64,000 nt of DNA, taken from contig JAFCMP010000094.1 in assembly GCA_017506865.1 (NCBI GenBank), positions 1-64,000 of the forward strand, in the 5' to 3' direction. The DNA comes from Tribonema minus (taxonomy: Eukaryota > Sar > Xanthophyceae > Tribonematales > Tribonemataceae). Below are positions 2,220-59,840 of this stretch, piece after piece. Position numbers and translations under genes: made by a program. The first letter of the stretch is position 1. Each line of letters begins with the position of its first letter. Under the pieces are notes generated by a model. That model did not search any database and was not told the origin of the DNA. It saw only the letters and a list, made by a program, of their open reading frames with translations.

Positions 2220-3063
2220 CTACTTCCTGGCACCTCCACGCAGCAGAGCAGCGAAGCTCACTGTGCCGTATGCCGTCTTAACGGGAGCTGAAGCGCTGCC
2301 ATTGCCATTGGCAGCAGCGACAGGCGCACTTGCCGCCACCACCGGCGGCGCCGCCGCCGCCGCTGCTGGCTTCACGGGCGCAGCAGCAGCGGCGGCGCTC
2401 TTGGCGGCAGCAGCAGTGGGCTCAAACTTCTTGCCGAACAGCAGCAGGTCGGTCAGCGCAGCAGCGGCGGCAGGGTTGGGCTGCGTTGCGCGCGCAGGCA
2501 CCGCAGGGGTGGAGGCAACAGGCGCCGCAGCGGCCGCCGCCTCCGTAGCAGCGGCTGCTTCCGCCGCAGCTGCTGCCTGCGCAGCGGCTTCCGCAGCGGC
2601 AGCAGCGGCAGCTGCGGCCGTGTGCGCAGCCTGTGCCGACGTGCCCTCCGCCGCCGCGGCAGCAGCAGCGTCGCCATCGGTACTGCTGTCGCTGATGGCA
2701 GGTTCCATGGCCACAATCTCAGGGTCTTCATAATCCTGAGCATCATCGTGAGCGCTGTCGCCGTCGCCAGCATCGTCGTCGCTTGCTGCATCCGCCCAAG
2801 AGGCTGCGCGCGCGAGCTTTGCTGGCTCTACAGGCGTGCTGTCGCCCGCAGTTTCGCTGTCCTCATCAGAGCTTGCGGCATCAACTGATGCGTCCTCGGC
2901 TGCTTCTGATTCAGGTGCTGCGTCTGCAGGCTGCATGGCCGCTGCCGGTGCAGACGCTTGAGCAGCAGCAGCAGCGGCGGCAGGGGGGTGTCGCGAAGCA
3001 CGATCCTCGTCCAAGACCTGCTGTATGCGTGCCTTGGCGGACTCCACGCCAGCCGTAGGTCCC
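2220..3063 (-). other. KH gene last exon: end of KH14 and acidic/Ala-rich tail
   Basis: The first residues (GPTAGVESAKARIQQVLDED) complete the last KH module that begins in the 3574-3914 exon. The tail that follows alternates acidic Ser/Asp/Glu stretches with long Ala runs interspersed with Pro and Thr, and ends SFAALLRGGARK before TAG. Such composition is expected to be disordered. The GC-rich GCN-repeat DNA keeps other frames open on both strands; those frames are shadows. Confidence 0.8.
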
Positions 3064-6000
3064 CTGCAAAGAATACAAGAGCACCATTACGTCAGCTTGG
3101 CAACACAACTTGATTTGATCTGAACTCGTCACCACAACCACAACGCCTGCAAATCCGTGATGTTGATCGCAACGCGTCGGTCGGTACAATGCCTGCGATC
3201 TCGAATGTTGACAGTAAAGTGTATTATGGCGGTTTTGTTGTGTGGTCACGTCTTTGTGTGCACGTCCGGCCTGCCTTGCCATGCACGAGATCTCTAGTGC
3301 CTGTGTCTATGTACACCTTTCCTGTGCTGCTCTTGAAGTTTTGATGCTTGTGTAAGTGCAGTACTGTCTATGTCATGTTGTGACTGACTGCAAATGTACT
3401 GTGACTGATCTCGCTGACAGGCGTGTATTGCGTTGGCTAGACCTGACGCGGCGGGAAAAGCCCTTACAAGCAGCGATGGGCGCAAGCCTGCAGTCAATAT
3501 GTGCTTGAACTACGCGTGCACTTCACGTTTGCAGTTGCAATCACCTACTTCAACTTGAGGTTCACATGCTGACCTGATGCGCACCACGCCCGCCGTCCTG
3601 TCGCAGTCGATTCGCACGCCCATGCACTGCTCCTGTATAGCGCGCACCCCCGCCCCGCCCTTTCCAATGATCACTCGCATGAGGCGATCCGGAACGGCCA
3701 CTTCTGCTGAGTCTTTCTCCGCAGACCACTCCCGAGAGAACGTTGCCAGAGCTTCCTTAGCCTTGATGACAGCTTCAGCAGGACCGTTAATGGTCACACG
3801 GCCGGTGCTGTTGTCCTCTACGGAGATTCTGGCACCGGTTGTGGTGCGCAGGTTGTTGATATTGGAGCCGTTCTTGCCGATGAGGCGAGGAAGCGATGCC
3901 GGCGGCAGCAGCACCTGAGAACAAGAGAGGATTGGCCCATGTGAGTGAGTGTCTTGAAGTAGGGTTAGAATTAGGGTTAAGGTTAGCGTTAGGGCTAGAT
4001 TAGGGTTGGGGTTAGGGTTTGGGCTAATAAGCCAAGGTGCGACTACACATTTGTTATGCACAAGTGTGATTCAATTTTAATTTGCAGATGCGACCTGTGC
4101 TCAAACAGTACAAGGCAGTGCGCATCTGGTGCCTCAAAGACATGCGTGCCATGGCCTTTGCGCTCACAATGAGGGTTAGGTCTGAGGCTCTGACCACAGG
4201 CCATGGGCAGGGGTAGCGCAAGCACCATATGCACTGGCCAATGATTGATGGTTGTAAATGCTGCCACTTTGCAAAGCGTCCGCATGCGCTGTTGTGCAGG
4301 CTGGGGGTATGCAAAACCGAACATGAGCATGTACACCTTACCTACCTACCTGCTTCAGTTCACAAACATCACAACTGCTCATGTACTTCTTGAAGTGTGT
4401 CGCGCGATACGATTGTGCACTTTCCGCCTGTGTGAGCGTGCTGTGCAGCATAGGTAGGTAGTTGCACTATGCAAAACGCTCACATGTGCTCACGCGTACA
4501 AAACCAAATGCTCCAGTCCCGCAAATACACATGCATTACCTGCCTCAGCATGCTCAGTTATGCCTGTACCTCAAGTATGTTGCGCAGAAAGGTCGTGCAC
4601 TTCCTGTTTTGGGGGCTACGGTTAGGGTTCACCTTAGGGTTTTGCATGTACCTGAGCATGCTCTGCAGCATGGGCCGCGGAGAGAGCAGACAGAGCAGCC
4701 AGGATGGTTGCGCGTTCCCTTGCGCAATGCTCAGCAGTGTCTCCCCTCACGTGCAGCTGCATTGCGCGCGAGTCCAAACGGATCTCCGCCACCACACGCG
4801 CACGCGGCTTCTTGTCCGCTGCTGCTTTCTCTGCAGTGCAGGCACAAAATGCGCGGCAATCGGTTGAAGGTTGGAGACAAGTCACATGTGAGGTTTGTTG
4901 CCGTACTCGGCGGATGGTTTGAGTTGAGGTCAGGTCACCTCTGTAGATACATGCATTGTTGCTAATCCTGACCCTAAGCTATACACTCACGCCCGTGTGT
5001 ACTAACCCTAACCCTAACCTAATTCTAACCCTAAGTGTGTTTTGGTGAGACTTGAATTTGTCCAGTGCAGTGTGTGTTAGATACAACTGATACCAAGGAA
5101 GTGTGTATTTAGCACTCAAAGTGATTGAACTTCCACTTCAAGCACATGCCCGAGGGCACCGCAGCACATTGTTGCAAAAATACCCCCACTTTCTGGTGGC
5201 AATGGGCCGAAGTCAACCACCAAACACGTGATTTGGCATACGGCATACTGAATATATACAGCTGTTCATGGCATTGGATGCGTACCTGAAAGTATGCATC
5301 TCCATTCGCGTGCTTGTGCTATTTGTCTCAACTGAAACCATCTATCACAGGTGCTGTACAGGTGATTGACGACGTCAAATACTGTTAGTCTGAAAATGAC
5401 GCTTTGGACTCCCAGGATGAATACCGCACTACTCATGACTGCCATGCCCCAGATATGTCAATCTCACCAAGCTACTCGGAATCTTAATGCACCAACGATT
5501 AATGCCATCACCCAAAGACGCCAAGTTCTCACAAGTGTTTCTGCATGCACTGCAAAGTTGCTGATGCTTCTTCGCGTGCTTCAAAGTTGCTGAAACTGTG
5601 CATGCAACAGTGTGCATGCAATGGCACGCGTCGCACCTGCTGCTGCGTTGGAATCCTCAGCATCACCCACATCACCCTCCTCAGACGCCACAGCAGGCTC
5701 CTCAGCAGCCTCGGACGCAGCCGAAGAACCTTCATCAGGAACGGTACGCGGTCCCAGGAACTCTCCGGAGCGCTTTCCGGTGATAATGGGAACCATCCAA
5801 GGCTCAATGGGGATCAGCGCATTCGTAGTGCGCCACTGGGTCAGCACTGAGTTGAGCGCCGTGACCGCTGCTTCAACGGCCTGTGACGCTCCAATCAGCA
5901 AAAAGTGATGCTCCAATCAGCAAAGTGACGCTCCAATCAAGCATGTGTCAGTGAGTGACGCTCCAATCAGCAAGTGACGCTCCAATCAGCATGTGACGCT

Positions 6001-9000
6001 CAAAATCAGCAAGTGACGCTCCAATTAGCATGTGACGCTCCAATCAGCATGTGACGCTCCTCATCAATACTTCTACTTCTATTTGATAATTCATGTGGTG
6101 GGTATTGATCAGCTGGCGCTGTGCGAGGGGAACGTGTCGTGTCGTGACTGACTGGGCGTAGTGCATGTAGAAGTATGGATTTTGGCAATGATGCAATCAT
6201 CGTTGTTGAACGAGGTCAGTATCAAGAGGCGAGGCTTGAAGTGATTGAGTAACTAACGCATTGGTCACTGGTTAGTGAATAAGAATCTTGAGCAACTTTT
6301 ACAAACTTTGAAGTGCTATCTACACGTCTGATGTGTGGAAGTCTTCACGGTCCGGTGCGTCACGCATCGCCGTCAAGAGCTCATGAAACACATGATGAAA
6401 ACATGCAATGACAAGATGCAAGCATCTCACCATAAGGCTAGCATAGACAACATCACACGGAAGCCAGTCATATTGCTACACCCCGACCTGATGCGTATGC
6501 CGAGTAACATTGAAACATGACAAAATGCTGTGCCACCGATATACCAACGATGCTAATTGTATGAAGTGTCTCACTCAGCACCTATCAAATGTGTGTGGCA
6601 CAGATAAGGCTGCATAATATCTGCTTCATCGAGCATGCATTACTGTCGCTCACAAATTACTTCTTTTGACAATTAAAGTCCCAGCAAGCAGGGCTATGAT
6701 CTTTCTACTCATCGCAGGCAGTGAAAGCACTCTGCGATTATCCGTTGTTCAACCTCATGTGCCACCAATACAGCACTTGAGCAGGAGTATCTGTCAGTTG
6801 CTTGCAAGTACAGTCATTCAAATGCAGTTCAGTGAACTGTACAGCTGTGTACCCTGTACCTTTGCCTCGCCACGCACGCGAATGCAGTTCAGTGAACTAT
6901 ACAGCAGTGTACCCTGTACCTTTGCCTCGCCACGCACGCGCACGCAGCAGCAGGTCGGGTCCAGCAGTAGCACAGCGTGTGTGCTGACGGCTATAGCATC
7001 CAGTGAAGATGTTGACGCCACGCTAAACAGGGCAGGGCGGGGCAGGTCAAAGGTGGCAAACTGGCCCGGGAAGACAAAGTCCAGCATGGAGTACGCGTCC
7101 CTCTGGCGGACAGAACACACATAATAACAGGCAGGGTTGTGGGGGTAAGTTGAGCAGGTCCGTAGCACTGGCAGGAAGCTCATGCCAAGTGATCATAATG
7201 CGCCGCAGACCGGGTTAGGCTTAGGGTCAGGACCGGTATGTACTGTACCAGCGTGAAAGTAGTTCATGATATCAATCAGCCAGTTCTCTGGTGCAAAGCG
7301 AAATTAGTGAGCTTACACGTGGGACACACTGCACATGTTCCAGGCAGATGAGCCACTGCAGGGGTGCGTGGCCAGAGGGGAGGTTCCAACTGTCAGATTC
7401 AGTGCCGCTTACTGCCAACACGTTTCATAATTTTGTTATCACAGTAATAGGTAGTCTGCGCAATGCTCGTATGCGTGCACACACCAACATGCGGAAGGCA
7501 TCCTTACAAATGTGCATGGGGAGCTGAGGATGGGAATGACGCGTGGTATGGGTGTTGAGTGCACGGCCCTTCAGCACATGCCCACATAAACCATCGTACT
7601 GCTGCAGAGTATGAAATAGAAAGTCAGCAACATGGTGTGAACATTGCGTCTTGTGCAGTGCCAGAGCACCACAAAATGTCGGCATGTGATTTCTTTTACA
7701 GTACCAACATACATACATACCTTGGCTTTCTCAATGGCCGCCCATGGGCCCTTGATGACAATTGCCTTCCGGTCGCCATCGATGCTGACTTCAACTTTGT
7801 GCTGCGTCGCGAGCCGCTTGCAGTTGGCACTACCTACCCGGGCAACCTGCATATGCAGCCAGGCAATGTAGCAGTCACATGTGATGTAGAGAACAACTTA
7901 GCAACAACACAGGGATACTGCTGCATGGTGCGCCTTACCATGATTGCTATGCAAGGGGCTAGACTTGCCGATCATGACATTCGTGCATGCAGCAGGCTGC
8001 CAGGGGTAATATCACCTTGCAGCTAGAAGCCCACAATGAACCTGATGCCAACCAGACGCACTTTTGAGATGCGCAGAACATTTGTGCTAGCACACTGACA
8101 ATCACGTTGAGGGCGGTACCCCAGTATCTTTCTGCATCTCACTACGTTTTCAAAAGCATTGCTGGGCACTGCGTCACCAAAGTGACCGTGGCAGTGAGCA
8201 GCCTAAACTGCCACAGTCCCCACCACCATGCGCACAACAACGTGGTGTATACCGCTGCACAGCTGCGCATCGCACCACGACAACCACTGCTGCCTCAACT
8301 ACACTGATGAGCAGTGCTGCGCATCGCACCGCAAACAAACTTTGCTGAGCACTGCTGCCTGGCCTGAGCCTCACGCAATGGCACGGCTGCGGCACACATG
8401 ACCCTGATGAGACCACGACCCTGCCTGCATATCAGAACGGGCCAAACCCTAACCCTCGTTGCGAGGAACAACAACACGCACTGAGCACTGCTGCCTCACC
8501 TGCGCGTCGCACAGCGGCACGGCCACCGCGCCAGCGACCATGGCCGTGACGTGCGCCCTCGCCAGCTGCGCGTTCTGCAGCGCTCCGCGGATGACCACAT
8601 CGCTGGGGTTGCTAGGGCTAGGGTTACCACCAGCGCCAGGGTTACCACTAGTGCTAGGGCCGGGCCGCGCCTCTGCGTGTACGTCGAAGTCCTGGCTCAC
8701 TGTTCTGAGCGCTGCTGCGAGTGCCGCAGGCGGCCACTGCGAGCCTGAGGGGAGGGCGACGGCGGCGGTGATGCGCACGCCCGCTGCAAAGGCGCGCAGC
8801 CCGTCCTTGCCGGAGGACAGGGTGGCGCTGTCAGGGGCGTGTATGCGGATGTGTCCGCGCGAGCGCAGGAGGTCAAAGGTCACGTTCAGGTCGCTCTGAA
8901 CCTGCAGGGGGGGGAGGGGGAGGGGGAGGGAAAGGGGATTGAAGTGTGCACTGTCACCATGGCTCGAATTGAGGTGCGGGGATATGGGGCGTGAGATGAG

Positions 9001-12000
9001 CTTGAGAGCGCGACATACACAGCGCGGGGAAGGGGGGGGGGGGGAGGGGGTTGAAGCGGTTAACGACAGCGCATAGCTCAGCTCATGTTGAGGCTGCGTC
9101 CTGTTGGGCACTCACGTGGCTGCTCATATGTTGCCTCCTGGTTCTCAGTAATCACACCTCGCAACACATGCGGGGGGGGCGTGGGGGGTGCAGGGGGGGG
9201 AGGGGTTGAAGCGTACACTGCCACCACTGCTCAAACTAAGGACGTTGCTCAAAGTAAAGAGTGAAAGTAGAGGTTAGGGTCAGATGAGGCCTGAGAGGAA
9301 CTTGAGAGCGCTACGTACACAGCAGGAGGTGAGAGGCCGCAGTGAGGCTGCGTTCCAGCTCTTGGCAACAGGGCAGTTGTGGCTCAAAAGCGTCTGTAGC
9401 AAAGGCTTGCTCAACCTAGCTCATGCCCTAACCCTGACCCTACTCCTAAGGCACCCCCCTCACCTTCTTGACAGTGGCGCCCTGACGCCCCACCAGGTGC
9501 CCCATGACCTCCCCCTCAAACGGCACCACCTCTATCCACTCCTTCAGCGCCTCGCACAGACCGCCCCCCTCCACTGCAAGCCGCAGCTGCGCCAGCGCGC
9601 CCGCCACCGCCGCGCGCGTCCCGCGCACCGTCACTGTGCGCTGCGCGCTGTCGCCGCCGCCGCCGCCGCTGCTGCTGCCGCCGCTGCTGCTGCCGCCACC
9701 GTTGTGCTGCGCACTGCTGCTGCTGCTGCTGCTGGTATGCTGAGCACTGCCATTGCCGTTGCGGTGCGCGCTGCTGCCGCCGCCGCCTCGACCGCCGCCG
9801 CGCCGCCCTGCAGCGCCGCCGCCGCCGCCGCCGCCGCTGCTGCTGATGCCGCTACGCGGTCCACTGCCGCCGCCGTTGACAGCACTGCCGCCGCTGCCGC
9901 TGCTGCTATCGCCATTGCCGGCGCTGTGACCGATAGTGCCACCGCCATTTGTGGCGGGAGGGGAGGGGCGGGGGGTCGGGGAGAGCGCCAGGTGGCAGCC
10001 TGTGGCGGCGGCAATGCCGGGCAGCGCTCGCGACGCCAGATACGGAGCGTCCTCACTCAGCACCTGGTACTCCTCAGCGTAGTTTGTCTCTTTGAAGTGC
10101 TCCAGAAGGGCCACAGCCTGCAATGTACACAATTGACAAATGGACGAAGGTGGCCACAGTGAGAGGTTAGGTTAGCGGATTGATTCAATCACCAAGCAAG
10201 CTTTCTGATCTGTGGCTTAATGCTGACCCTGGTGCCAGACAGGTGATGTGGGTAGTGCAATAACGCAATCGTACAAGTTGGAAGAATTGAGCGCTGACAC
10301 ATTGTGACTACAGCCAGCTGCACCTCCCACCACATTACATACAGACATTGGACCAATGTTGACGCAGAGCACATACAATACAAGGCCACCGCTGAAGGAA
10401 GTGCTCACTTTCCAACATCAAGGATTAGGGTTAGGGCTAGTCTAACATACTGACAACATGATTGTTGTGTCAGGCTGATGCGCCTCTATGAAACACATGA
10501 CAAAGTGTGGCGCGTCATTCACTAACCCTTACCCTAACCTAAACCAAAATAAGAAGGACAGTGAACCAAGTTTGAGGCAGAAATGCATGCACAGCCACTT
10601 AAAATAAGAAGGACAGTGAACCAAGTTTGAGGCAGAAATGCATGCACAGCCACTTCTGAAAGGTGATGCTTAATGTCCAACTCAGCCACTGAGGGTCTGG
10701 CTGTTGAGCGCACTGACGCAAACCCATCATTGCGCTCTCTTCAAAACTTGACCCTATGGACAACGCTTGCAGGCATCGGCTCAAACCTTGCAAACATGCC
10801 TGCATGAGTGTGCCTTGAGGGACGCTACCATGAGCTTTCGCTCTGCGAGCTTAGAGCACATTCTCATACGTTCTGTAGCATGTATGCTTTTTTATTATTC
10901 ATTTTTTTTTTTTTACACAGCGGTCAACAGCAGTAGCACAACCACCTTGTACATCATTACTTGCTATAATTACACTGTGAGGTGTAAAACTCGTGAGGTA
11001 AGAGTGGATGCTGTGGCTATGTTGGTACTTTTCTACTGCTCGGACTGCGCATGGATGTCCCTGAGTTGAGTTCTGCAAGCTAATTCAAGAACTTACTGTA
11101 TTCATCAACTACCTTATCAAGAGCTGCCTGCTCTCCGCGCAGCTGCACAAGGCCACTAGGATTGATGTCCATGATGACCCCCAGCCCGCCTGCTGTTACA
11201 CCACGCGGCTGAGCACTGTCACGCCCCTCTCCCTCTGTCACTGAGCCTGTCACACTCGGTACTGGGGCTGTTGGCATGCAAGCAATGGCAGCGGGACCAG
11301 GAGCAGTGAGTGTTCAGCAACAATTGACGTTGTCCAAGTGTAATGGGGGGCAAGTGCGGTCTTCGGGTTGGGTTGAAGGTTAGAATAGGGCAAGTGCGGT
11401 CATGCTTGCCTAACCCTAAGCCTGACTATGAGTTTACCTCTGAGTTACAAGGTGAGCCGTCACTTGCACAACGATATGCGCTTATCTGAGAACGTTCAAA
11501 CATGAGCACACGTTAAACGCAATGCTTTGACATTGTGGCTTCCAGGAGGTTACTGATCACCGATCACAGCGCATGATGCATATAATGCAGCTTTCTTGCA
11601 ACAGTTGATGAAAAAGAAAACAGCCCAAATTGATTGAGCCCCGTGCGACATGATGCAGGTAGGGCGGTGCCTGCAGTATAACGCGGTCTGCGCATTACGT
11701 CATACTTCGAAAAAATTGATGCTTCTCGTCGCATTCTGGCAAAGGCTGCTGCATCTTAGGGCTGGAGTTCACACATGTCACTATTTCAAGGGTTGTCAGT
11801 GGCAACGGGCGGTGCAGCAGATGGAGCGAGCCCTTTCCCCTAAACCTGACCCTAACTTCAACCCTACCATGAGTGCCGCACACAGCCCTGTAACCGTTGC
11901 CACAACCATTATATCTACGGGCCCATGTAAAGTATTTGCGCTTGCAGACACGGTCACCACCACCATGCAGTACAACCACAGTACACCTGTAGTACACCAA

Positions 12001-14763
12001 ACAGTACACTTACAGTCCTCGCCGTCCGTTACGGGGGGCGTGGCCGACAGCGACGTTTCCGTTTCGGCCTCCCCCCCCGCGCTGGCCTCTGAGTCAGCTT
12101 CAAGTAGGGTACTCAGGGGGTGGTGGGGGGTTGCCAGGGGGGTCGCGCGAATGTGCGCACGCAGGCCCGATGCGGTACGGCTCAGCAGCTGCTGAACCGC
12201 TTCCTGTGAGACAGTTACAGAGTGGCCAGTGAGTATGTGGGGTGCTGAATGGTGCTTGCAAGCTGCACTGCTGCGCTCTGAGTGGCCAGTGAGTACGGGG
12301 GTGGTGATGGGTGCTTGCGAGCCTGCACTGCTTAAGCGTTGAATGCAAGTCATGCTCAATTGGGGAGCAGCGCAAGTTGATCAGCAATGATCGAGCGTGA
12401 TGCACTTGCACGGCTTCAGCGCCTGTACTGCCTAACCTAACCCTACCCCTACCCTCACCTCAACCCTCAACGTTGAATGAGTGATGTACTTCAGAGCGTA
12501 TAATTTGATGGCGGTTCTGCTCAGTCACGTTGCTTGCTGCGTCTTCAAGTGAATCGGCAACTGGCAAAATGTCTCCATCAGAGGCATGTGGCTTCGCACT
12601 TGACCATGCCTCATTATTGCGTCTTTCGATGTAGTCTAGAAGGTAGGTCTTTTACTCATACTGCAGCAGCAGCACAGGTTCTGGGCAAGAAGTCGCCAAA
12701 CTGGCATGCATGCGCAGAGGGGCCCAGGCCCAACTCAGTGCCAGTGGGCAACTGTTTGCATTGCCTCTATGTATGTACTACGCATTGCAAGTACGCGAAA
12801 TGTGCACTATGGCGGCATACACAAGTGTGTGTGCGATGGAGGCAGAAGAACAATGCAGCATCAGTGGCTGGGCACTGCAGAACAGCATTGCTGACACAGC
12901 CACTCAGAAGCCTTCGTGTTCTACTGGCTCATGCTGCATTTACCACCGCAACTTCAACTGTTGACTCTCAGCAACAAAATTACAATTCAAAAGGCCTGCC
13001 TTTGAGGGTACCACAGCAAATAGATTGAAAGGATTTAGAATGAAAGGTAGGTACACATGTGATCGCCACCGAAATGGACAAAGCAATGTGCGTACCTTTC
13101 CCAAATGCACATCCCTGGTCTGGTTGTGGCGCACTATCTCATCGACTGCAGCCTTGGCACTGGCCAGCTGCTCATTGCCGGTGGTGTCATAGGCAGTTGC
13201 ACACAGCGCCAGGGTGTTGGTGGCCCAGTCCACTTGCATCTCCACCAGCGGGCATATGCTGCGAATCTGGTGAACCGCACAAAGAGGGGAAAAAAGGATG
13301 GATGGATGGAAGATGAAGCAGTTACAAGACATGCAACAGCAGTTGTTCGCCGCATCATCGTCTCGTTTTTCCGGCGCATTGACATGCTGTCATCATTGAA
13401 AGAGAAGGGAGCAGCTGCAGTGCTCTCAGAGGTGTTCGGCACCTGACAGCAACTGACAGGAGCAAGCAAACAGCAAGATCTTCAACCGAAATTGATAGTT
13501 GCGGCAAAAAGCTGTGGCACAAAGCTGTCAAGTGCTTGCTGTACTGCATGCCTATCCTTGTAGCGCCACGTCTGGTTGTTTGAACGATTACATTAGCTAG
13601 TCATCATACATAATGCAGCGCACGAGCAACCAATCTGACTTTAGTAAAAGTATATTCGTGCTCTCGTTTGAGATCACATACGTCCGTACCCTGTTGACTG
13701 CAAGCAAGATGCATACCTCGAAGTATATTCCTTGAGTTTAGGGTTAGAGTTGAGCTGACCCTGATCAAACATGCATATACATGCCCTTGTTTGAGATCAT
13801 CGACCCTGTAAACTGCAACAAACATGCTTCAACTTCAAGTAACATATATAGACTGTGACAACAAATTATAAAACAATGCGTTGTTTTGGTCAGCTTTAGT
13901 TGTTCGTAGTATAATGTTTTCGTTAGTTTCAGACATTCGTTATGTCACTCTCTAATGTATACATACTTCTACCTTATTGATGACGCTCCCGCCCTTGCCC
14001 ACAACTCGTCGAGCATTTAGCTTGAACTTCGAGTACAACGCGTACATGCCTTGCAACTCGTCAAGGTAACTTGCTTCAACTTGCTTCAACTTCAAGTAAC
14101 ATGCATACATACCTTATTCATGACGCTCCCGCCCTTGCCCACCACCGCCCTCAGCTGCGCCCCCGCCAGGGCTAGCGTCTAAACTCAGACGGCCTTGGCG
14201 CAACTGACTTTGGGTTTCGAGCCCTGGCTAAACTAGTTTAGCCATGGCGCAACTGGCGCAACTCTTATTAAGGCTTCTAGTGCTTCTACAGTCACTATTA
14301 AGGCCCATAGAGCTTACGTAAGGGTTAGGGTTAGGGTTACAGTCATGACTTACCCTAGTTAAACGCTAACCCTAGGCAAGACTCGCGAGTTTACGCGAGT
14401 AATGAGCAATACTTGAGAGTAAATGTGCGAGTATCGCCAGTTGCGCCACGAGTCGCTTGAGCCGGCAGGTGGCGCAACTGGCGCAACTCAGTGGCGCAAC
14501 GTGTTTGGCGCAAGAGTTTAGTTTAGACGCTAGCCCTGGCCCCCGCCATCCTCATGCATACTGCCTTCTTCAACTTCAAGTAACATGCCCCAACTTCAAC
14601 ATACCTTGTTGATGACGCTCCCGCCTTTGCCCACCACCGCCCTCAGCTGTGCCCCCTCCATCCTCATACACACCGCCCGCGTCTCCGCCTCCGCCAGCTC
14701 CGCACGCAGCAGCACCATCGCCTTGGCCACGCGCGCCGCCGCCCCCTTCACCCTGATGCCCAC

Positions 14764-14796
<33 letters not shown>

Positions 14797-17700
14797 AGGG
14801 GGCTGAGGCAGGTGCTCAGCGGCAGTGTGTGGCGCCGGCCGTGCGGCGTGCGGTCTCTGCACCAGTATGGACACTCCGCCGCCGGCATCCTGGCATGCGT
14901 AAAGGAGTGTAATTAGGATTAGGGTTTAGGATTAACCCTACGAACTATTGCATTTCAAGTGAGGAACTGATGGTTACAGAGCGGTTGGCTGGCGCAGCAA
15001 GTGCTCTGCTTTTACTGCAGCACAAACTTAGAGCTGTGCATGGTGCAAATAGCCCACACCAGCATATATGGTCTCTAAAGTGATGATAGTGCACATCAGC
15101 CTCAGCATGACGGATGAGCAGCAAGTATGCGCTGGCACTAACCCTTACCCCTATACCACCCTAACCCTAACCCTAATCCCACATCACAAGGGGGACAAGG
15201 ACACAACAAACATGCAGCTCTGCTGTTCATGACAACCAGTGACGCAAGTCCCTCAAATCATGGAGCACCCACCTTCTGGATCTGGCGGATGAGCTGCGCC
15301 TGATTGGCCATCAGGCAGCCAATTAGATGCCTGCGCTGGTCCAGGCATATGAACTCCTCACGCGTGCGGTTGTCGTCGATGATGCTCTGTAACTGCTCCG
15401 CAGCGGCGGTGACGCCAGCCTGCTCCCCTCTAACTGTCAACTTCAATTCCTTTCTGCTGACGTCCACCGTGACGTTGTGGTCATCCTGAATCCCCCTGCA
15501 TCCACAAAAACAGGCAAACGTTAGTATTAGGGTTAACGTTGGGGCTAGGCGAACCATAGCGGGTAGGTCAACGTTGTGTCGCACATGTGCTCGTTCTCGG
15601 AGCACAACAATTAGAAAGCCGGTCGCTGATACGATGAGTTGTGGTATTCAATGCTTGTAGCCATCATCACAAAGGGGTCATCATCAGCACGCGCTGAATG
15701 CAAGTTCAGAAAACAGTAACAGGGGAAGCTGATTTGATGCAGGCTTTCTGAATGCCTGGGATCAGGACTAGAGTTAGCAAGCTTGTGATAGAGATTTGTT
15801 AACAAGAACACCAGATTGTCAACAACGAAAGACCAATGCTGTGACATCCATTATGTCGCAGGTGTGCTACATTAGGCCACAGGTGTGCACAAGCAAACGC
15901 CGCAAGAAGACGGACAACCTATCGATCACCCAATGCGTTAAGTGAAGGAGCTTTCATCGATGAACACGAAAACCCAAGATGTGCTCCTCAAGTATCATTT
16001 GACTCACCTGAGTGTCATGCCCTTGGTACCCATAATAGCCGGAATGTCGGACTCAAGTATGGGCAGGACCTCATGGCCACAGTCGAGGGCCTGCAAGCAG
16101 TGCACAGTTCAGAGTAAGACGTTCCGGGGTGAGTAAGACAACAGAAAGCAATAATGAACAAGCGTGTCAACTGCTGCACTAATAGAGCAAGCTCATGCAC
16201 TGTGCATGCTGGGTGTGCATGGGACAAAAGTATTAACAAAATCAAAGCATTTGCTTCGTGCAATGCATGGCAGGGCTTGAATGTTGTTCATCAGCTTTAG
16301 ATTTGTGTGCGCTGTGCTGTGAAGAACAATGCTGGCTATGACCTTGTGCACAGTGCAATAGGTGCCGCATTTGGAGCACGCAAACACACAATCGGCAAAA
16401 TCACCAGCGGTGTCACCGGCTCCCTAAAAGAATTCCACTGAGATACGGGACCCGGTCATACCAACTTCTGTTTTTTTGCCTGGTCTAATTCAACAGCCTG
16501 GAGCACAGGCAACAACAGCGCATAAAGAGTCTCAACCATACACAGGTATCGATAGCCATGGGGATGCAGCGCAGGTGACCAGGTTTAGTTAAAGTTGGGG
16601 TTGGGCTTATCACTGAGCATGGAAAACAGATTGCGAACAGCACTGCATGGTGTGGGGCCTGAATTCTGCTGCAGCAACTGTAGTGCTAATTTATTACCTA
16701 ACCCTACACTAAACCCTAACACTAGGGTCCGTAATCAGGAAAATGGCGTGCCTCTTTTGAAGAGGCTTACCTGGAGCTTATCCTGCAGCATGGCGAGTCC
16801 TTCCGGAGTGCCCCGCACCCACAGTTCATCGCCGGCAGTTTCGGCCGTTTCCTCCCCAGCATCATCTCCTGCTGCGGCTGCTGCGGAGCGTCTGAGGCCC
16901 ATGGCTACACAACACTGCTCTGACAGAAGTGCCTTGAGAGCAAATCTGTTGACCTGCAAGGACAGTACAAAGTGATTGATTTAGGGTTGGGGTTGGGTTG
17001 TGGTTGAAGTTGAGTTGAAGCTGTACTACTAGTTTCAAGCTAAAGGGATGCACAGGGTCCTTGGCAGTAGTCCACATTGGTGCCTTCGGCAGGTCCTTTG
17101 CAAGGCTGAGGTCTGAACTTGATGGCAAGTTGAAGTTGAAGTTTGATGCCGACCACATACCAGCAAGCTTACATCAGGATGCGTTAACCTCTGCATGGTG
17201 ACATGACCCAGCGCAAGCCCCTTGACGAGGCATGACCACACAGGAACACCTTGAAACTGCGCAGGGAAACTGCCGATGATCAAAGCTGATTGTCAACCGT
17301 ACTTCTGACTGGGGTTCCTCCTGTCATGTAGTCGATAGGGTAAGTCAATGAAAACAGCGAGCCTAGCCCTAGTAATGATGAATTGAGCGCTGCGCCCATT
17401 GCCTGTCCTTGTGTAATTCAAGCAGCAGTACTGCGGCCACATTAGGGCCAGAAGCAGATTGAAGCTGCTGCTTCATCTCAACGCCGCGTCAAATCTAGCT
17501 TCATAATGATAGTGTCACTGACCCTGGCCGCTGCCACCGCCATCTGACCATAACCTTAGCCCTAACCTGGTAACCTCGTGGCGCAAAATACATCGCAATT
17601 GCCAAGTCCACGGCGGGCTGCTGTTAGGTCTTGGGGGTTCTAACCCTAAGCGAAAAAGTTCAAGGGGAGGATGGGTTCGTGCTGAGCATTGCTGCTGATC

Positions 17701-21685: not shown

Positions 21686-21688
21686 GAG

Positions 21689-26985: not shown

Positions 26986-26989
26986 ACTG

Positions 26990-32348: not shown

Positions 32349-32374
32349 ACCACAAGGAGGCGTCGCCAATTAAC

Positions 32375-48400: not shown

Positions 48401-51400
48401 TAATCCTTTCCCTAACCTGCTTAGGCACAATGAGAGCACCAAGCGTCTATGCTGTGGCTCGGACTGTGTTGGACTGTGTGTGTTTGAGACTGCCGCGTTA
48501 AAGACGCTGAGACCTCTGTATCGCAAAGACAAACGTGGTGCAAAGAGCTTCCGACTGGCAGCAATTGTACACAGAAAGTAAGCTGAGCCATCAGTCGGCG
48601 GCCCTGCTTGACCACGAAACAGGAGACCAGTGTCGGGAACGAGCAGCTCGCGAAGGTAAATAGAAGCAAATCATTTTGCATGCATGCTTATGACAATTGC
48701 TCTGCCTGTACTCTAGGCGCATGCGACAGATCACCTGGCAACTACATTGATCACCTGGCAACTTGAGCTCGCGCAAAATCACAATAAACACCCAATCACC
48801 AGGCACAGCGGAGCGACCAAAACATCAACGCAGCTCCGCGCCCACCTAAACTCCATGCGCGGAGCCGCCCGCCGAGCTGGCAGCAGCGCTCTGCCACCAA
48901 CTTCAACTCCAACTTCAATCCCTCCCCCCGCAGACACCAGCCCCACCCTGTCCTCCCACCCATGCCCCAGGTATCCCCCCTCTGCCCTCGCGCCACTGCC
49001 GCTGAATCTGCCACCGCTGCCGCTGCCGCCACTCAGGAGGTGGTAAAATTGAGCGCTGCTGCTGCTGCTGCTGCTGTCGCCAGTGCTCAGCAGGCGGCGC
49101 GCGCGCGCCGCGGCGCGCCACTTGCGCGCGCACCGCCCCACCAACTGCCAGCGGCGACGCTCCGCTGCGGCGTGTGTGTTGGCGGCGGCGGCGAGGCGCG
49201 CGGTGATGCGCGCATCCGCTGCGGAGAGCCACGCGAGACCGCCCTCCCGCAGCAGCGACAGCCTGTTGCGGAAGGGGGCAGAAGTGAGTGGCGCAGTGAG
49301 TGCCGTGATCAGAGTGCTAACGCTATAACCTCCTAGGTAGTGGCGGCATACATTTCACAAGGAGAAGCAGCAGGTGCCGTGATCACGCCTATTTCACCAA
49401 GGTTGTACTGTGCTGAGACAACAATGGTCGTTTCAGATGTTAGTTGCTGCCCTGCCGCAGCGCAACGGCCTTTTGCGGAACGACGGAAGTGAGTGGCGCA
49501 GTCAGTGCCGTGGGCAAAGCGCTAATTGTAAACACTAAGCAATGGCTCGGTAAGTGATACGGCCAAAGTGCTAGCCCCTAGCCCCTAAACACTCAGTAAT
49601 GATGGCAGGTCTTGCACAAAGAAAAGCAGCAGGCGCCATGAACAAGTAATGATCGCCTGCTTCATAACGTAGTGCTGTGACCTGACCAAGATGGTCATTT
49701 CACATGGTATTGGTTGGCCTGCCGCACCAGCGACAGCCTGTTGCGCAAGGACGGAAGTGAGGGGCGCAGTGAATGCCGCGATCAGAGTGCTAACTGTAAG
49801 CACTCAGTAATGATGGGCTGTTGCACAGGGAAAAGCAGCAGGTGCCGTGATCAAGTATAATTGCCTGATTCAAAGGTACTGTGGTGCTGTGCTGAGACAG
49901 TGATGGCTGTTTCGCACGGTAAAGGCTGCCCGGCCGCAGCAGCGACAGCCTGCTGCGCAAGGATGAAAGATGTGGTGCTTTCAAAAAGTGTGCTTGCCAG
50001 GCAATGATATGGTCTGTTGTGCAACGGAGTGCCCAAATTGCAATAATGACAGCCTGTTCTGCAAGGACGGAAGTTGTGGTTGGGTGTGCAGACAATGGTA
50101 TTTAAATGGTCATTTGCAAGGGGCAAGACAACGTGATGGGGTTATGAGGATGCTTGTTGTTGAGAGTGGATTGCAACATAGGAAAAGGGGGTTGAAAACA
50201 CATGTTTGAAGTTGCAAGTGGCGGTGGCGACGCTCCCAAACGTCATTAACGGCAGTGACTATAGTAGCTAGCTGGCTGTTTGAGCCTGTGTCAGTGGTGC
50301 CATTAGCCACAACTGGCATCCTCGTCGCTACACTCAGGCCGCGCTGTGCAATAGACATCAACAGCTGGCATGTGTGTATTGGACTCTGTCGTACTGTGTT
50401 GTACTGTGTGTGTACTCTAAATCAGCCACGTCAGCACATGTGGTGCATAGATATCAGATTTGATAGCTGTGTGTGTTGTTCCTGTGTGTGAACTTCAACA
50501 TTCAACTGGGTCATGTCAGCGTTCGTAATGCAGTCTTTGCCCACGGTCGGCGATCGTGCAAGGATCAAGTGCCAGATTTCATGATGATGAAGCATCGTGG
50601 CATCAGACATTGCCATCACACGTGGGGCTGCTGCATACACCCGGTACGGGCGAAGGCACCCCGCCATTCTGCAGTGATTAGCGCTAGGGTGTGATACACA
50701 ATGCATACGACTCGAACAACAGTGTCGAAGGGGACCATGAGTACAACTTTTCCAATACCGAAATGGCAGAAGTGGAGAGGGGCAGAATTCTTTTTTACCT
50801 GCGCATTTCTGCCGCTTGTTCTGAGCGCTGCCGCTTCAGCCTCCTCCGCTGCAGGTACAGCACCAGACCCTGCCACGCGCGGCGCTCGGTGGCCAGCTTC
50901 CATTGCATCAGCGCCTCAGCAGTCTTTTGCCGCGCATGTGCTTCGCCCTGAACATACCTGACAATGGCTGCAGACACGGTACATGCGATGCAGCATGAGC
51001 ATACATAAGGTTCACTACTTCTGCTGATTATAGGCTATGCCTGTATGAATAAGTTTCCACTGCATCAGCGCCTCAGCAGTTTCTCACTGCGTGTTTGCGT
51101 CGCCCTGGGCATACCTGACCATAACTGCAGATGCAATGACAACATATGACATGAGCATACATACTATAGACTAGCTACTATGACGAGTCATTTTCTTTCA
51201 AAGTACTATGGCTTTTATACGGGTCTTGCAGTCCATTAAACCTTAGGGTTAGGGTTAGGGTTAGAAGTTTTTCGCCTTGAGCATACCTGACGATTGCTGC
51301 AGGCGCATTACATGACAAGACAAGGCATGTGCGAACATGACCATAGCTGCTGCTACTGATGAGACAACGTGGCAACATCATGCTGTCTCATCGCGGCTGG

Positions 51401-53931
51401 TGCGCCTAAACCTAACCCTAATCCTAAGCGTGACCCTACCCCCTATTCCCCGCTTGTGAGCATACCTGATGACTGCTGCAACAGAACCACAAGAGATGAC
51501 AAATGCGGCACAAGCATTACCATAGACACTGCTGCTGACAAGACAATGTGGCTGCACGTGCACCTAGTGCAGTAGCGCAGGCAGGCTTTCAGACATGCTT
51601 TATATGCATGCCTCTGTATCCCTAACCCTGATGTAGTAATCTACATAGAGCAACAGAATATACCTACATACCTTTGAACGCGCGCCTCTCCAGCGCCAGG
51701 CACCGGTAGCCCGCGGCCCGCTGCGCCAGCGCGCGCCGCCGCCGCGCCGCCGCCACCGCCCCCCGCCACCCCCCCCACACAGCTCTCAGCAGCACCGCCG
51801 CAGCGTGCCCCCTCGCTCGCGCGCTCGCAACGCGCCTCACCATCGCCCGCGCATGCGCCTCCGCCCACGCCGCCGCCGCCGCGCGCAGCCGCACGCGCGC
51901 CACCGCCGCCGCCGCCGCCGCCGCCAGCGCCGCCGGCGCCGCGCGCGCCGCCCCCCTGCCCTCCGCATGCATGCGCCACCGCTGCAGTGTTTTTGGCAAT
52001 GCGGCGCGCGCCGCATGCACCGCCGCCAGTGCGCCCGCGTCGCGCGCCGCCGCTGCTGCGGCCGCGGCGGTGCGCCACTCGGCGAGCGCCGCTGCTGCCG
52101 CGTAGCGGTCGCGGTGCGCCGCCGCGGCGCCGCGCGCGTCTACGAGGCGCAGCGCCAGCGCCGCCTCCGCGCGCCAGCGCTGCGCGCCGCGTCTGCTGAG
52201 CATCACCGCGCGCAGCTCGCGCGCCGCGGCGGCGGCGCAGCGCAGCACCGCCGCCGCGCGAGCGGCGCTTAGCCACCGGCGCATGATCAGGGAGTGCGCG
52301 CTGCGCAGCTGCCATGCACGCCACGCGTCAGCATATCCGCGCCTGCGCTCGCGCTTGGCGCAGAGGTATTCCCGCCACGCCGCGAAGGCCTCCGACAGCA
52401 GTGGCAGCGCGGCGCGCCGCCGCCGCCGCTGCTGCGCGCAGCACGTGCGCCAGCGCCCGAGCGCGCGCCGCTGCGCCGCCGCCGCTGCCGCCGTCGCGGC
52501 GCGCGCCGCGAGACCGCGCTGCTGCATCTGCTGAGCACTGTGACCGCTGTGCCAGCCATCCAGCAGCCGCAGCAGCAGCACGCGCGCGGCGAACGTGCGC
52601 GCGAGGCACGCGCTGCGGCCGCGCTGCCGGCGCACCGCCGCCGCCGCCGCCAGCCCCGCCAGCCCCGCGCCACACGCGTGCCTGCGACGGAAGCAGTCCG
52701 CGCGGCGGCGCAGCAGCGCAGCCGCGGCGGCGCGCGCAGTCATGTCCCGCTGCAGCGCCGCTGCGGAGCGCCAGGCGGCAGCGCCCGCCGCCGCGCGCCG
52801 CCGCGCCCACAGCGCGCACGCCGCGGCGCCGTTTAGCTGACAGCGCGCGCCCTCTGCCGCCGCCAGCTCCCACCGCGTCAGCGCCCGCAGCAGCGCGGGA
52901 CGGACGGCGGCACGCGCGGCGGCGCGCGCGGCGTCGTGGCGGCGGCGGCTGCGCAGCGCGGCCGCGCGCCAGCGGCGCAGCGCGGCGGCGGCGCGCAGCG
53001 TGCGCACGGCCGCCGCTTCCGCAGCTGCGGCTGCTGCGCCGGCGCGCGCTGCCGCGAGCACGCGGCGCGTGTGGGCCTGCCACAGCGACAGCGCCACCTG
53101 CGCGCGTGCACGGTGGCAGTGCACGGCGGCGGTGGCATGCGCGTCCCTCCTCTCCAGCGCCGCTGTGAAATTGCCGGCCAGTCTCCGCAGGGTCCCCCTG
53201 GCCAGCCCTCTTGCGCGCCAGCGATCGAGCGCCGCCATTCGCGCGCGCTCCTTGCGCCGCTGCGACAGGTAGCGCCGCCACGCTGCGAATGCGGCGCGCT
53301 GGCGATGGCGCGCCCAGAGCTTTACGGCGCTGGCGGTGAGGCGCGTGAGGTGCTGCGCAGCTGCCGCGAAGGCCACCCAGCACCGCAGATGGTGCCTGAG
53401 ACGGCGGCGGCGCGCTAGCGCTTGCAGCAGCGCCGCAGCACGCCTTCTCTCGACGCAGTGCAGACTGTGGTGGTGCCAGCGGCGCAGGTACTGCCTGCGG
53501 AGAGTCGGCGCCGTGGCAGATTGCCGCCCGTCCCTGCGCTCTGCGCTGCGCCGCTTCGTGTTGGAGAGGGCAGAGGCCCACAGCAGCAGCGCGCGCCGCT
53601 GCTGCACGTAGCGGTGCCGCCCCCCCCCAACAGTCATGAGTGACCACCTCTCCCCACGACGTCTGAGCCATCCCTGCCATGCTGTCAATGCCAGGGCCTT
53701 CTGGCAGCGTACGAGGTGGTGCTTGCCTCGCAGCGCCGCCAGCGCAGGTGCGGCGAAGCGCTTCCACTGTGCCACGACAGCGATGGCCAGCTGTTTGCGG
53801 CGTGCGCGCCGCAGGTGCTGCTGCTGCTGCTCCTGCTGCTGCTCCTGTTGCTCCATTCTACGCGTCTCCGCATCGATTGTTGCCTCTGAAGCTGCGTTTC
53901 GCCCACTTCCCAGCTCTATGAGCGCCTTGAA
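45474..53931 (-). CDS. Sfi1-like protein with centrin-binding (Trp) repeats, 5' incomplete
   Basis: Exons, in translation order: 51672-53931, 50799-50967, 48960-49262, 47974-48355, 46211-47329, 45474-45626; phases match throughout (4386 bases, 1461 codons plus stop). The long first exon is Arg/Ala-rich with recurring L-x-x-W-(R/K) units, for example VVAQWKRFAAPAL, LTAWQGWLRRRGE, LLLWASALSNTKR, FAAWRRYLSQRRK and ALDRWRARGLARG. Such tandem Trp repeats form the long helix that binds centrin in Sfi1-type centrosome/basal-body proteins. The next two exons continue the repeats (EALMQWKLATERRAWQGL). The Gln-rich exons 47974-48355 and 46211-47329 are joined mainly by phase and may belong to a neighbouring gene. 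The last exon resumes a helix (VRSALEQHASEARARLRDF). The intron after 47974 begins with GC. The model opens at an acceptor (FKALIELGSGRNAA), so the N-terminus lies further upstream; ATG 53854-53856 is an internal alternative. Confidence 0.7.
45790..46075 (-). repeat. Decayed copies near the 46211 donor, and an alternative terminal exon
   Basis: Minus-strand copies of the 46211-47329 exon end (coding AIAAGVGDDE before GTATGT) lie at about 46025-46075 and 45822-45850. Between them is a duplicated acceptor (GCCTGTCCAG then GTATC(A/G)CAGAT(C/T)GCAG). Its proximal copy opens a frame, VSQIAESYTGNAAEDFFK, to a stop at 45876-45878. That frame is phase-compatible with the 46211 donor, so it is a possible alternative C-terminus. 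Confidence 0.6.
49235..50080 (-). repeat. Five copies of a splice acceptor before the 48960-49262 exon
   Basis: The true acceptor (GCAACAG then GCTGTCGCTGCTGCGG on the minus strand, at 49262) is followed upstream by copies at about 49441-49489, 49711-49757, 49918-49966 and 50026-50073. Each has a CTTCCG/CATCC(T)T block, CGCAACAG-like AG and GCTGTCGCTG(C/G)TGCGGC. Intron pieces such as GTGCCGTGATCA and ACTCAGTAATGATGG travel with them. Confidence 0.92.
50960..51500 (-). repeat. Copies of the acceptor and start of the 50799-50967 exon
   Basis: The exon starts coding AIVRYVQGEAHARQKTAEAL. Minus-strand copies upstream lie at about 51056-51125 (longest; retains the ALMQW-coding part with an internal stop), 51268-51303 and 51455-51482. 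Each keeps CTGCAG plus GTCAGGTATGCTCA-like sequence, and a TTAGGG or CCCTAA tract sits next to the last two. Confidence 0.9.
51672..53931 (-). other. GC-rich exon coding about 750 residues of Trp repeats
   Basis: This single exon is extremely GC-rich, dominated by GCGC, CGCGCC and GCCGCC strings, unlike the surrounding introns. Because of this, four or more other frames on both strands stay open for hundreds of codons. The minus-strand frame with regular Trp spacing is the coding one: its repeats recur about every 25-35 residues, and it alone splices in phase at both ends. Confidence 0.82.
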
Positions 53932-57590: not shown

Positions 57591-58696
57591 ACCTACCTTA
57601 CCAACTGCCAACCTGACTGTTGGGGGGTAGCGGGAGCTTGAACACAGCCGTGGGATGTGTCACAACAGCATTTTTCTGACCCTAGGGTTAGGGTTTGTCC
57701 TCAGACCAAGCTTCCCAGTACTTCCGAAGCACCTGGTATTTTCATGTTCTTCTGAAGTATTGGGCAGTGGTGAGCTCGAGTACTGGGCAGATAGTGCGTC
57801 GTTGCATGCAATGGCAGACAATGGCAGGGGTAAGCACTGAGCTTCATGTGCACACACCACTTTAGAGCCGGACCGCTGTCAAGACCACCGCTGCGGGATA
57901 TGATTGTCAAGAATCGAAAGCGTGTGTGGCAGGCGCCGTGACACTTTCAGGGTATGAACACTAATTATTTACTTGTGCTGGCTGTTGCCGCTTTCGCCAT
58001 TTGAGCAGTGCTGCCTGCGTCTGCTGAGCTACCTGCATAATTGAAGTATTTTGTTGTATGGCACTTGCTGCAGAAGTCATGGCGATATATCCTGCTGAGC
58101 AGTTGCTGCTTTGCGCAAGGTCGGTGCAATACGCCAGCCCTAGTAATACTTCAAGTCTGTTAGTTGAGAGTGAGATGTGCTGCACTTGGGAGGCAGGTAC
58201 TAGACGGCGACACAACACAGCTTAAACACATGCAAATGCGCTGCCACAAAAGCACTCACATCACATCTGCAATGCTGGAGCATGCAAATAATGGGACAGC
58301 TTGTGGCATGCCTTGATTCAAGCAGTGAAGAAGCGACAGATCTGCACTCTGTGTGACATGCCTCCGCTAGCAAAAATGACAAGGTGAGATTGCCTCATGT
58401 GGGAAGAATGGCAAAACGATGGCCTTGTATTCTGCTGGCATCACCCCATAAGCAAATTCACTGTCCCTTGAGTGACATGTTCTTAATTGCGACGTAAGCG
58501 TCGGTGCTACCTACCCTAGTGGTAGAGTTTGATCACTTGCTGTCCAGTGCTGTTAGTGGCATGTGTAAGCTGGTGGTGTTGGAGTCAAGCGTGACTTGCA
58601 GCCTTGAGCACCCGTTCCACGGCTGTCGGTGGCCCATGACATCCACCTGTACATGCGTGAAGGGCAGCATTGGCCGCAGCAACAGAGCAGCACAAA
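57591..58696. other. Spacer with a candidate minus-strand terminal exon
   Basis: The only supported content is a minus-strand candidate exon at 57961-58038. After an ATGCAG acceptor it reads VAQQTQAALLKWRKRQQPAQ then VNN and TAG. It is in phase 0 and could be the last exon of the gene whose upstream exon is 59101-59362, skipping the two exons at 58697-58963. The rest shows a TTAGGG tract near 57683 and nothing else I can support. Confidence 0.35.
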
Positions 58697-59362
58697 TCAG
58701 AGACATGCATTGAAGTTGGCCAAATTTTGCATGAATGAAGGCCTGCCACTGCTCGTGTACTTGTAAAAAAACACTGCCGCCACAAAGCACTGAGACCTTA
58801 TTTTCTCCAAGGTGTTTGCAGCCAGAAACTGCCTGCAGCTGAGCATGTTGGAAGGTGGAGCACCTGAGGGAATTGGTGGGGTAGAAAGAAGAGCATAGCC
58901 AGCATGAATTGCACTTGTCGCCAGCATGCAACACTTCCACATATGGTCTGGGCATGAGAAGGTCTGAGCAACGGCGGCATCATGTAGAGTGCTTACCGTA
59001 ACCCTAACCCTAACCCGACCCAGAAACACAACAGATTCAAAGCACGCGACAGTTCAAGCTGTAGATGCATGTGCATCATCACCAGTGTATCCATACACAC
59101 CTGCTGCAGTACAAGCGTAAAGCTGCACAGCGGCGGAGCTTCGTGCTGTTGCGTGTACTCTTGAAGTGTCTGCTCCAGTGGTGGACGACGCTCCTGTCGC
59201 CGGAGCACTTCAAGTTCGTCTGCTGAATGCACAGGTGCCACAGGTGTCGGGGCAACATTGCCCGCAGCCGCAACCAATGTATGTGCAGCGGCGGTAGTTG
59301 TAAGCAGGTTCGCTGGAATGGACACCATAGTGCGCGTGCCGTACGCACGACACAGCCAGCGC
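58697..59362 (-). CDS. Unrecognised gene, 3' exons
   Basis: Minus-strand exons 59101-59362, 58797-58963 and 58697-58742 join in phase (GTGTGT and GTCTCA donors) and end in TGA. The first has an Ala/Thr-rich start (MVSIPANLLTTTAAAHTLVA) and a helical stretch, ELEVLRRQERRPPLEQTLQE. The next reads TFSCPDHMWKCCMLATSAIH. A competing model joins the first exon directly to the VAQQTQAALLKWRK exon near 58038. The upstream part of the gene is unresolved; a candidate exon lies near 60435-60500. No family recognised. Confidence 0.35.
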
Positions 59363-59840
59363 CTGCGCATCATCACAATGAACACAAGATGATTGATGTT
59401 GGCTCTTGAGTACTTGTGATGAAGCTCTTCTTCAAGTGCAGTTCAAAATAGAGGATGATGGGACGGTAAGCAGGGTTGCGTTGCTGGGATGGAGAGCATG
59501 GTGCGCACACTGTACGCACAGCTGGACACATCACCAATGGCAAAAACATCAGGCGTGTTGGTTCGCAAGGGCTTGTGGTGAAGTTCTGCTTCAAGTGCAG
59601 TTGCCAGATTAGAGGATGATGGGACGGTAGAACTTACAAGTGTGTAGTTGGGTACGTAGGTAGCACGTTACGGCCAGCGCCTGCACACATTACCAATGGC
59701 GAATCATCATGCATGTTGCTTCACGCGAGCTTGTGTGGATGATGTAAATGAATGAGATTCTGCTTTGAGTGCAGTCCAAGAAACCCAGTCTCAACCCTAA
59801 TCCTAGAGGATGATGGGACGGTAGAACAAGTGTGCATTTA
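59300..59840 (-). repeat. Three copies of an acceptor region, period about 160-200
   Basis: Units share ACGCACGACACAGCCAGCGC-like sequence (acceptor and exon start on the minus strand), TTCAAGTGCAGTT and GAGGATGATGGGACGGTA. The last motif occurs at about 59452, 59614 and 59808. Exon-start copies upstream of the 59101-59362 exon lie at about 59486-59525 and 59670-59690. Confidence 0.88.

Follow-up and report, generated by a model that had tools for sequence, protein, structure and literature searches.

Tandem copies of exon edges beside splice junctions in sampled genes of Tribonema minus, and their coding constraint

Background

Why should introns carry, next to their splice junctions, repeated copies of the very exon edges that they adjoin? 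The question is raised by the first 64 kb of contig JAFCMP010000094.1 (C94) of the xanthophyte Tribonema minus (assembly of 158 Mb in 554 contigs), referred to below as the window, i.e. the whole stretch of DNA that was analysed. An earlier note, made from its letters alone, described same-orientation copies of exon edge plus donor or acceptor beside junctions of four genes (KH, CDF, tyrosinase-like and Sfi1-like), and proposed that introns grow by repeated duplication across exon borders. Here we report that, in a sample of genes from the same genome, duplications spanning a splice junction occur far above chance in a subset of genes, and that the exon-derived parts of the copies are not dead but retain coding constraint. 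This constraint, and the tendency of genes to be mostly either loaded with copies or clean of them, are features that the earlier note did not contain.

Junction copies in a subset of genes

Copies of an exon edge together with its splice site adjoin 69 of the 254 junctions (42 donors and 27 acceptors) in a core sample of 17 genes, whose self-alignment yields 69 repeat families that include a junction, 17 that are wholly intronic and 6 that are confined to exons. The copies are adjacent, share one orientation and derive from the neighbouring sequence, as is characteristic of tandem genomic duplication. When one array was searched against the genome, the hits were that array, the adjacent unit and a single further locus. 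The largest arrays have eight detected copies, and the middle half of 89 families has a nearest-copy spacing of 103-154 bp (spacings of at least 400 bp left out). The exon parts of 112 aligned copies from the 17 genes range from 16 bp (the floor of the script) to 135 bp; thus copies do carry the exon edge, as had been claimed, but over a wider span than the suggested 20-80 bases.

The core sample (127 introns) comprises all 10 loci that matched the chaperonin family (PF00118) in a search of the genome, 6 of about 20 HSP70 loci (PF00012; multi-exon, picked before their introns were viewed) and the tyrosinase-like gene of the window. Four kinesin loci, taken from 40 listed stretches (PF00225), bring the total to 21 genes of four origins, a small fraction of those in the genome and all from a single assembly. 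Gene models were made with a purpose-written small gene finder and their exon chains were then curated by hand, a predicted exon being excluded, as a matter of judgement, where it duplicated a portion of another one. Two models are transcript-checked: the tyrosinase-like gene (8 exons) aligns without gaps to the transcript-derived EukProt P0001 over 633 residues, of which 623 are identical (98%), and the model of the chaperonin gene g51 matches EukProt P0121 over 424 residues (chaperonin epsilon: 100% identity to P0121 over the 424 residues given). The closest named matches of chaperonin epsilon are from Chrysoparadoxa australica (86%) and Discosporangium (83%), both of them ochrophyte algae. 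The search covered plus-strand repeats within 2.5 kb; pairs shorter than 25 bp, low-complexity or telomere-like pairs and pairs outside the modelled gene span were dropped before counting, and families were taken as independent.

The null expectation was obtained by simulating uniform tandem duplications in the nine clean genes, with the clean introns taken as having the ancestral length: events inside an exon or containing one were rejected, introns and dead copies mutated freely, exons changed only as selection permits, and the outcome was read by the same detection program. It placed 1,170 events (471 junction-spanning and 699 intron-only), of which 391 and 475, respectively, were detected. 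Against the resulting junction share of 45%, the observed share is 69/86 (binomial P-value 3e-11; the 6 exon-only families are excluded from the ratio), as the proposed enrichment around junctions predicts. The excess is also seen in young families, defined by a best pair whose intronic alignment spans 30 bp or longer with an identity of at least 85%, and compared with simulated ages of up to 0.08: 28 junction and 8 intronic families by hand count (28/36) versus 42% expected (214/508), with a binomial P-value of 3e-5 that was computed with 27/35. At these ages the simulation recovers 214 of 216 junction events and 294 of 304 intronic ones, hence a detection bias is not the source of the excess.

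The copies are very unevenly distributed among genes. Eight genes, which we call loaded, have copies at 66 of 126 junctions, versus 3 of 128 in the nine clean genes (Fisher P-value 1e-21, with junctions treated as independent and the classes assigned post hoc, from the counts themselves). The ratio of junction to intron-only families is 66:10 in the loaded genes, with junction families in the majority in each of the eight, and 3:7 in the clean ones, which is close to the null; intron-only families number 10 in 53.6 kb of loaded introns and 7 in 31.8 kb of clean introns. The pattern thus extends beyond the window, with chaperonin and kinesin genes among the loaded ones. Members of the chaperonin family occur in both classes, and the kinesins are evenly divided (2 of 4 loaded, 2 of 4 without repeats; their 15 introns hold 7 junction, 1 intronic and 1 exon-only families). 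Position on the chromosome was considered as the cause of loading and rejected: contig C544 carries a loaded gene as well as a clean one, and the same is true of C279, hence loading is not set by the contig. On another contig (C522) two HSP70 genes about 24 kb apart (L046 and L047), in opposite orientation and 84-89% identical including their introns, are both array-free.

The proposal that the copies lengthen introns is borne out in the sample. The mean intron length is 851 bp in loaded and 496 bp in clean genes, while 38.6% versus 1.3% of the intron sequence lies inside junction arrays. Outside the arrays the means are similar (523 and 490 bp), hence the arrays, which add about 330 bp per intron in loaded genes, explain nearly all of the extra length.

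One explanation of the excess is that some feature of the exon border (transcription, splicing, a step in base composition or nicks) provokes duplication at junctions in certain genes. It would be compatible with the exchange between units discussed below, and it accords with the excess among younger pairs and with the fact that donor and acceptor sides are both hit. However, over-represented words gave no signature of such a feature, and the commonest non-simple word, AACTTCAA, occurs in clean introns as well as in loaded ones. By itself, targeted initiation also leaves the constraint on the copies unexplained, and we regard it as rather unlikely. AACTTCAA (counted on both strands) occurs 40 times in the window versus 2.1 expected, a roughly 20x excess, in dispersed positions. 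It was rejected as the cause of duplication, since the density of ACTTCAA (2.07 per kb in loaded and 1.57 per kb in clean introns) fails to mark loaded genes. The telomere-like CCCTAACCC has a density of 0.58 per kb in loaded versus 0.13 per kb in clean introns.

Coding constraint on the copies

Intronic copies of coding sequence are usually expected to be dead, and the exon-derived parts of these copies are not. In 131 non-redundant copies, each having 20 bp or more of sequence derived from the exon, silent divergence from the exon (pS) is 0.223 and amino-acid-changing divergence (pN) is 0.060, which gives an N/S ratio of 0.27 (0.22-0.33, bootstrap over 60 families); across 7,163 bp these copies contain 6 stops and 38 indel runs (0.0053 runs per bp). 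Simulated dead copies passed through the same pipeline have N/S of 0.45-0.52, 0.08-0.20 stops per copy and 0.0038-0.0180 indel runs per bp (about 0.012-0.017 near the observed pS, and 0.0166 at pS 0.233), i.e. the real copies have about threefold fewer indels. Calibrated on the divergence of the adjoining intron in 81 copies, silent changes (S) number 231 with 199 expected, and amino-acid changes (N) 152 with 307 expected, the latter alone amounting to half of expectation. N/S is 0.24 in families in which the whole unit is repeated in tandem and 0.35 in the others, and 0.21 in copies with long exon parts versus 0.37 in the rest. Comparison of copies with one another gives 0.40 (0.32-0.49; 35 families), a value to which we attach less weight than to the exon-copy figure because exon evolution between the births of successive copies lowers its expectation.

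This result bears on the simplest explanation, uniform tandem duplication, whereby events fall anywhere, exonic ones are purged, those at junctions stay visible for longer and the copies are dead. Off-junction duplications in the window and intron-only families in both gene classes indicate that such events do occur, and the clean genes, taken alone, fit. Nonetheless, uniform duplication predicts a markedly lower junction share than observed, including among young pairs; the two classes of genes differ in their junction arrays and not visibly in their intron-only duplications; and dead copies would not have the low N/S that is found. As an account of the arrays, we consider it improbable.

Constraint could also be due to translation, if the copies served as alternative or duplicated exons. 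The low N/S and the scarcity of stops and indels would then follow, and the copied splice dinucleotides are mostly retained (in 11 genes, 71 of the 76 donor alignments have GT or GC and 39 of the 43 acceptor alignments have AG, with several alignments per copy possible). The far ends of the copies, however, carry no splice signal above chance: acceptors at the far end of donor-side copies are no better than at random places in introns (n = 82, P-value 0.755), and the same holds for donors at the far end of acceptor-side copies (n = 45, P-value 1.0). The copies thus lack the acceptor and donor per copy that define cassette or mutually exclusive exons. Moreover, copy spacing has no clear bias towards multiples of three (46, 43 and 38 in the three classes), the transcript-derived proteins P0001 (tyrosinase-like) and P0121 (chaperonin) skip the copies, which are simply contained in the introns of the two genes, and a chaperonin would probably suffer from having a stretch duplicated. 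The cryptic and alternative splice sites that the earlier note expected the copies to supply are thus not seen in use in these two proteins. Taken together, these observations make a translated role for the copies quite improbable.

Finally, the units could have been captured, in a highly diverse population, from alleles that had already diverged, the silent differences predating duplication and the copies being dead since, which would yield low N/S in young copies and might be favoured by considerable divergence between strains (the transcriptome-derived tyrosinase protein differs at 10 of 633 residues). But the way in which amino-acid change relates to intron divergence in the 81 copies fits constraint better (negative log likelihood 59.5) than captured alleles (74.8) or dead copies (101.6). 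By that fit capture requires about 5% silent diversity, nor would it be expected to produce the gradient with rank described below, and we deem it highly improbable.

Distance gradient and proposed exchange between units

The earlier note held that copies decay with distance from the exon, as in an ongoing process. Similarity to the exon does fall with distance, the nearest copy being more similar in 25 of 35 families and the farthest in 9, with one tie, and the loss consists mainly of amino-acid changes and indels. Age, however, is not the evident cause: in 18 families of at least three copies, pS is 0.211 at ranks 1-2 and 0.225 at ranks of 3 or more, whereas pN rises from 0.036 to 0.076 (permutation P-value 0.0014 for near versus far amino-acid divergence), and over all 131 copies pN is 0.053, 0.054, 0.060 and 0.093 at ranks 1, 2, 3 and at least 4. 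As silent divergence is nearly flat with rank, the decay is not a simple age gradient.

The units also appear to be mosaic. In 17 arrays the four-gamete incompatibility between sites climbs with their distance inside the unit (permutation P-value 0.0015), which is what exchange between units would cause and suggests unequal exchange. Of site pairs no more than 15 bp apart 40% are incompatible, versus 58% of those separated by more than 30 bp. Recurrent mutation could raise the level of incompatibility, but not easily its increase with distance.

The reading that we favour, with moderate confidence, is that the tandem arrays are anchored at junctions and that their units undergo exchange with the exon edge in use. 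Short tandem duplications would arise at many places in the genome, and where one spans a junction, the original junction would remain in use and the extra copy would be left in the intron. Some genes would see these duplications grow into arrays, whose units may recombine with one another and with the working edge by unequal exchange or slippage, and the exon part of a copy could thereby turn into the real end of the exon. Lineages with amino-acid changes, stops or frameshifts would be lost upon becoming the working end, and the copies, the nearest above all, would stay competent for coding without being translated from their place in the intron. That exchange with the working exon causes the constraint, and the molecular form that it takes, are what we infer from the sequence comparisons.

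Several observations weigh against this reading. Exchange itself is known by inference only, no event having been seen, and mosaic patterns can also arise where sites mutate repeatedly or are misaligned. The same N/S of 0.27 is found in families in which one copy alone was detected (25 copies); recycling covers such lone copies only if exchange, or its load, reaches them too. Their equal N/S also led us to reject the turnover of arrays as the sole cause of the low ratio. Silent changes lie slightly above the intron clock, and faster silent sites could contribute to low N/S. The values of pS by rank (0.218, 0.232, 0.190, and 0.260 at ranks of at least 4) leave room for a weak age gradient. Nine kinesin copies (hand sums; frames taken from domain hits, with one donor family that had no usable frame excluded) add little: they have S 18 and N 21, an N/S of about 0.37, without a stop, but with 5 indel runs in 410 bp, which is not below the dead-copy rate. 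Lastly, this reading does not account for the split of similar genes into loaded and clean.

Features of the window

Self-alignment of the window gave 70 direct-repeat pairs of at least 25 bp lying less than 3 kb apart (low-complexity and telomere-like pairs removed). The junction copies reported earlier proved real: the pairs touch 13 of the 14 ranges that had been listed, and the remaining one, 6821-6940, is a 60-bp tandem duplication. One of the listed ranges, 5881-6062 in the KH gene, is an exception: its repeat is a 19-bp intronic minisatellite that ends at the acceptor, and by eye its copies are free of exon sequence.

The tyrosinase-like gene has copies at 7 of its 14 junctions, namely the acceptors of exons 2, 3 and 5 and the donors of exons 2, 3, 5 and 7; the unit at the donor of exon 3 consists of 67 bp of exon followed by the donor and intron sequence. 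The exons of the KH, CDF and Sfi1-like genes are ab initio models without transcript support in this analysis. Repeats contain the predicted KH donors 6920, 14605 and 17988 and acceptors 18287 and 19007, both sides of the predicted CDF exon 29511-29774, and the predicted Sfi1-like acceptors 49262 and 50967. Two further duplications, one in a KH intron and one outside the modelled genes, represent the background process (Table 1).

Table 1. Coordinates of the tyrosinase-like gene and of duplications in the window (exons of KH, CDF and Sfi1-like are predicted)
Feature	Position	Strand	Details
Tyrosinase-like gene	32375..40337	+	8 exons; spliced translation compared with P0001
Tyrosinase-like exons 1-4	32375-32782, 33875-34072, 35222-35396, 36586-36676	+	
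Tyrosinase-like exons 5-8	37288-37513, 38530-38685, 39173-39421, 39939-40337	+	
Tyrosinase-like exon 2, acceptor-side duplication	33719..33883	+	copy 33719-33803; original 33808-33883 including acceptor and first exon bases
Tyrosinase-like exon 2, donor-side array	34004..34416	+	original 34004-34087; copies 34137-34220, 34364-34416
Tyrosinase-like exon 3, acceptor-side array	34813..35229	+	takes in first bases of exon
Tyrosinase-like exon 3, donor-side array	35330..35763	+	177-bp unit; copies at 35507, 35686
Tyrosinase-like exon 5, acceptor-side array	37003..37310	+	
Tyrosinase-like exon 5, donor-side array	37439..38123	+	copies at ~37611, 37770, 38045
Tyrosinase-like exon 7, donor-side edge copy	39386..39603	+	
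KH exon 6920-7102, tandem duplication across donor	6821..6947	-	60 bp, 94% matches
KH exon 14605-14889, donor edge	13970..14660	-	copies 14084-14168, 13970-14005
KH exon 17988-18287, donor edge	17681..18005	-	copies 17861-17917, 17733-17796, 17681-17717
KH exon 17988-18287, acceptor-side copies	18259..18544	-	
KH exon 18816-19007, donor-side copy	18560..18870	-	
KH exon 18816-19007, acceptor-side array	18978..19767	-	
CDF exon 29511-29774, donor-side copies	29141..29537	-	GC donor
CDF exon 29511-29774, acceptor-side copy	29737..30012	-	
Sfi1-like exon 48938-49262, acceptor-side array	49241..50074	-	
Sfi1-like exon 50799-50967, acceptor-side array	50895..51552	-	
Tandem duplication inside KH intron, off predicted exons	10546..10655	.	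55 bp, 100% matches
Tandem duplication outside modelled genes	42894..43118	.	107 bp, 98% matches

A piece of tyrosinase-like intron that includes part of an array (34298-35085) is 97% identical over 793 bp to positions 4998-5790 of a locus on another contig (L045, C86). GC donors (GCAAGT) are found at 38686, after exon 38530-38685 of the tyrosinase-like gene, and at 29510 in CDF. At one of the KH donor copies, perfect 21-bp inverted repeats lie 334 bp apart (14165-14540), and the segment looks like a small terminal-inverted-repeat element that may have inserted there. The 2.2-kb predicted exon 51672-53885 of the Sfi1-like gene falls in a region whose GC content is very high (0.758 at 52-54 kb) and in which both strands have long open frames. 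The contig starts with a CCCTAA telomere array (1-558), and short telomere-like stretches occur within introns. A search of the window for RNA families returned no matches.

Relation to known systems

Intronic minisatellites are tandem units that expand and contract; the arrays described here share the tandem organization, but the edge of a functional exon is their anchor, and the part derived from that exon is constrained. Introners form dispersed families, generate new introns and change gene structure in many genes, whereas the present copies adjoin their source exon.

In the potato RdRp case (PMC4974935), a local tandem duplication likewise crosses an intron-exon boundary and carries a splice signal; a single event made a new intron there, whereas here introns with copies are longer, arrays have up to eight detected copies, a gene can have many affected junctions, and the copies are skipped in the two transcript-derived proteins checked. 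Novel intron positions in Drosophila (PMC2891723), 5 of 31 of which are ascribed in a table to tandem duplication, similarly involve duplicated coding sequence with proto-splice sites, but the sections consulted concern new intron positions, and neither arrays nor constraint on copies feature in them. The ROCO genes of brown algae (PMC11378527) provide an example of repeated exon-derived units in related algae; these are tandem 72-bp LRR exons, translated, alternatively spliced and thought to be shuffled, i.e. whole exons in receptor genes, while the units in Tribonema are exon fragments with one splice site, in housekeeping genes. A search of the open-licence literature returned single boundary-crossing duplications and no comparable array system, which is weak evidence for the novelty claimed in the earlier note: the basic event was known, the arrays have no counterpart in what was searched. 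We view the system as a variant of within-gene tandem duplication with a possibly new consequence.

Conclusion

The arrays make visible one way in which introns lengthen, seen in roughly half of the genes sampled, and their constrained copies contradict the usual expectation for coding sequence stranded in an intron. The near all-or-none contrast between similar genes, e.g. within the one chaperonin family, amounts to a natural experiment. A broader proposition, which we put forward tentatively and with somewhat less than even confidence, is that the introns of many genes hold a reserve of exon ends, any of which may by recombination take the place of the working end, and regularly do so, with selection at the level of the protein acting on the copies without translation in place and with constraint falling with distance. 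If exchange with the working exon is confirmed, the ends of exons would be interchangeable, and recombination would expose untranslated DNA to selection.

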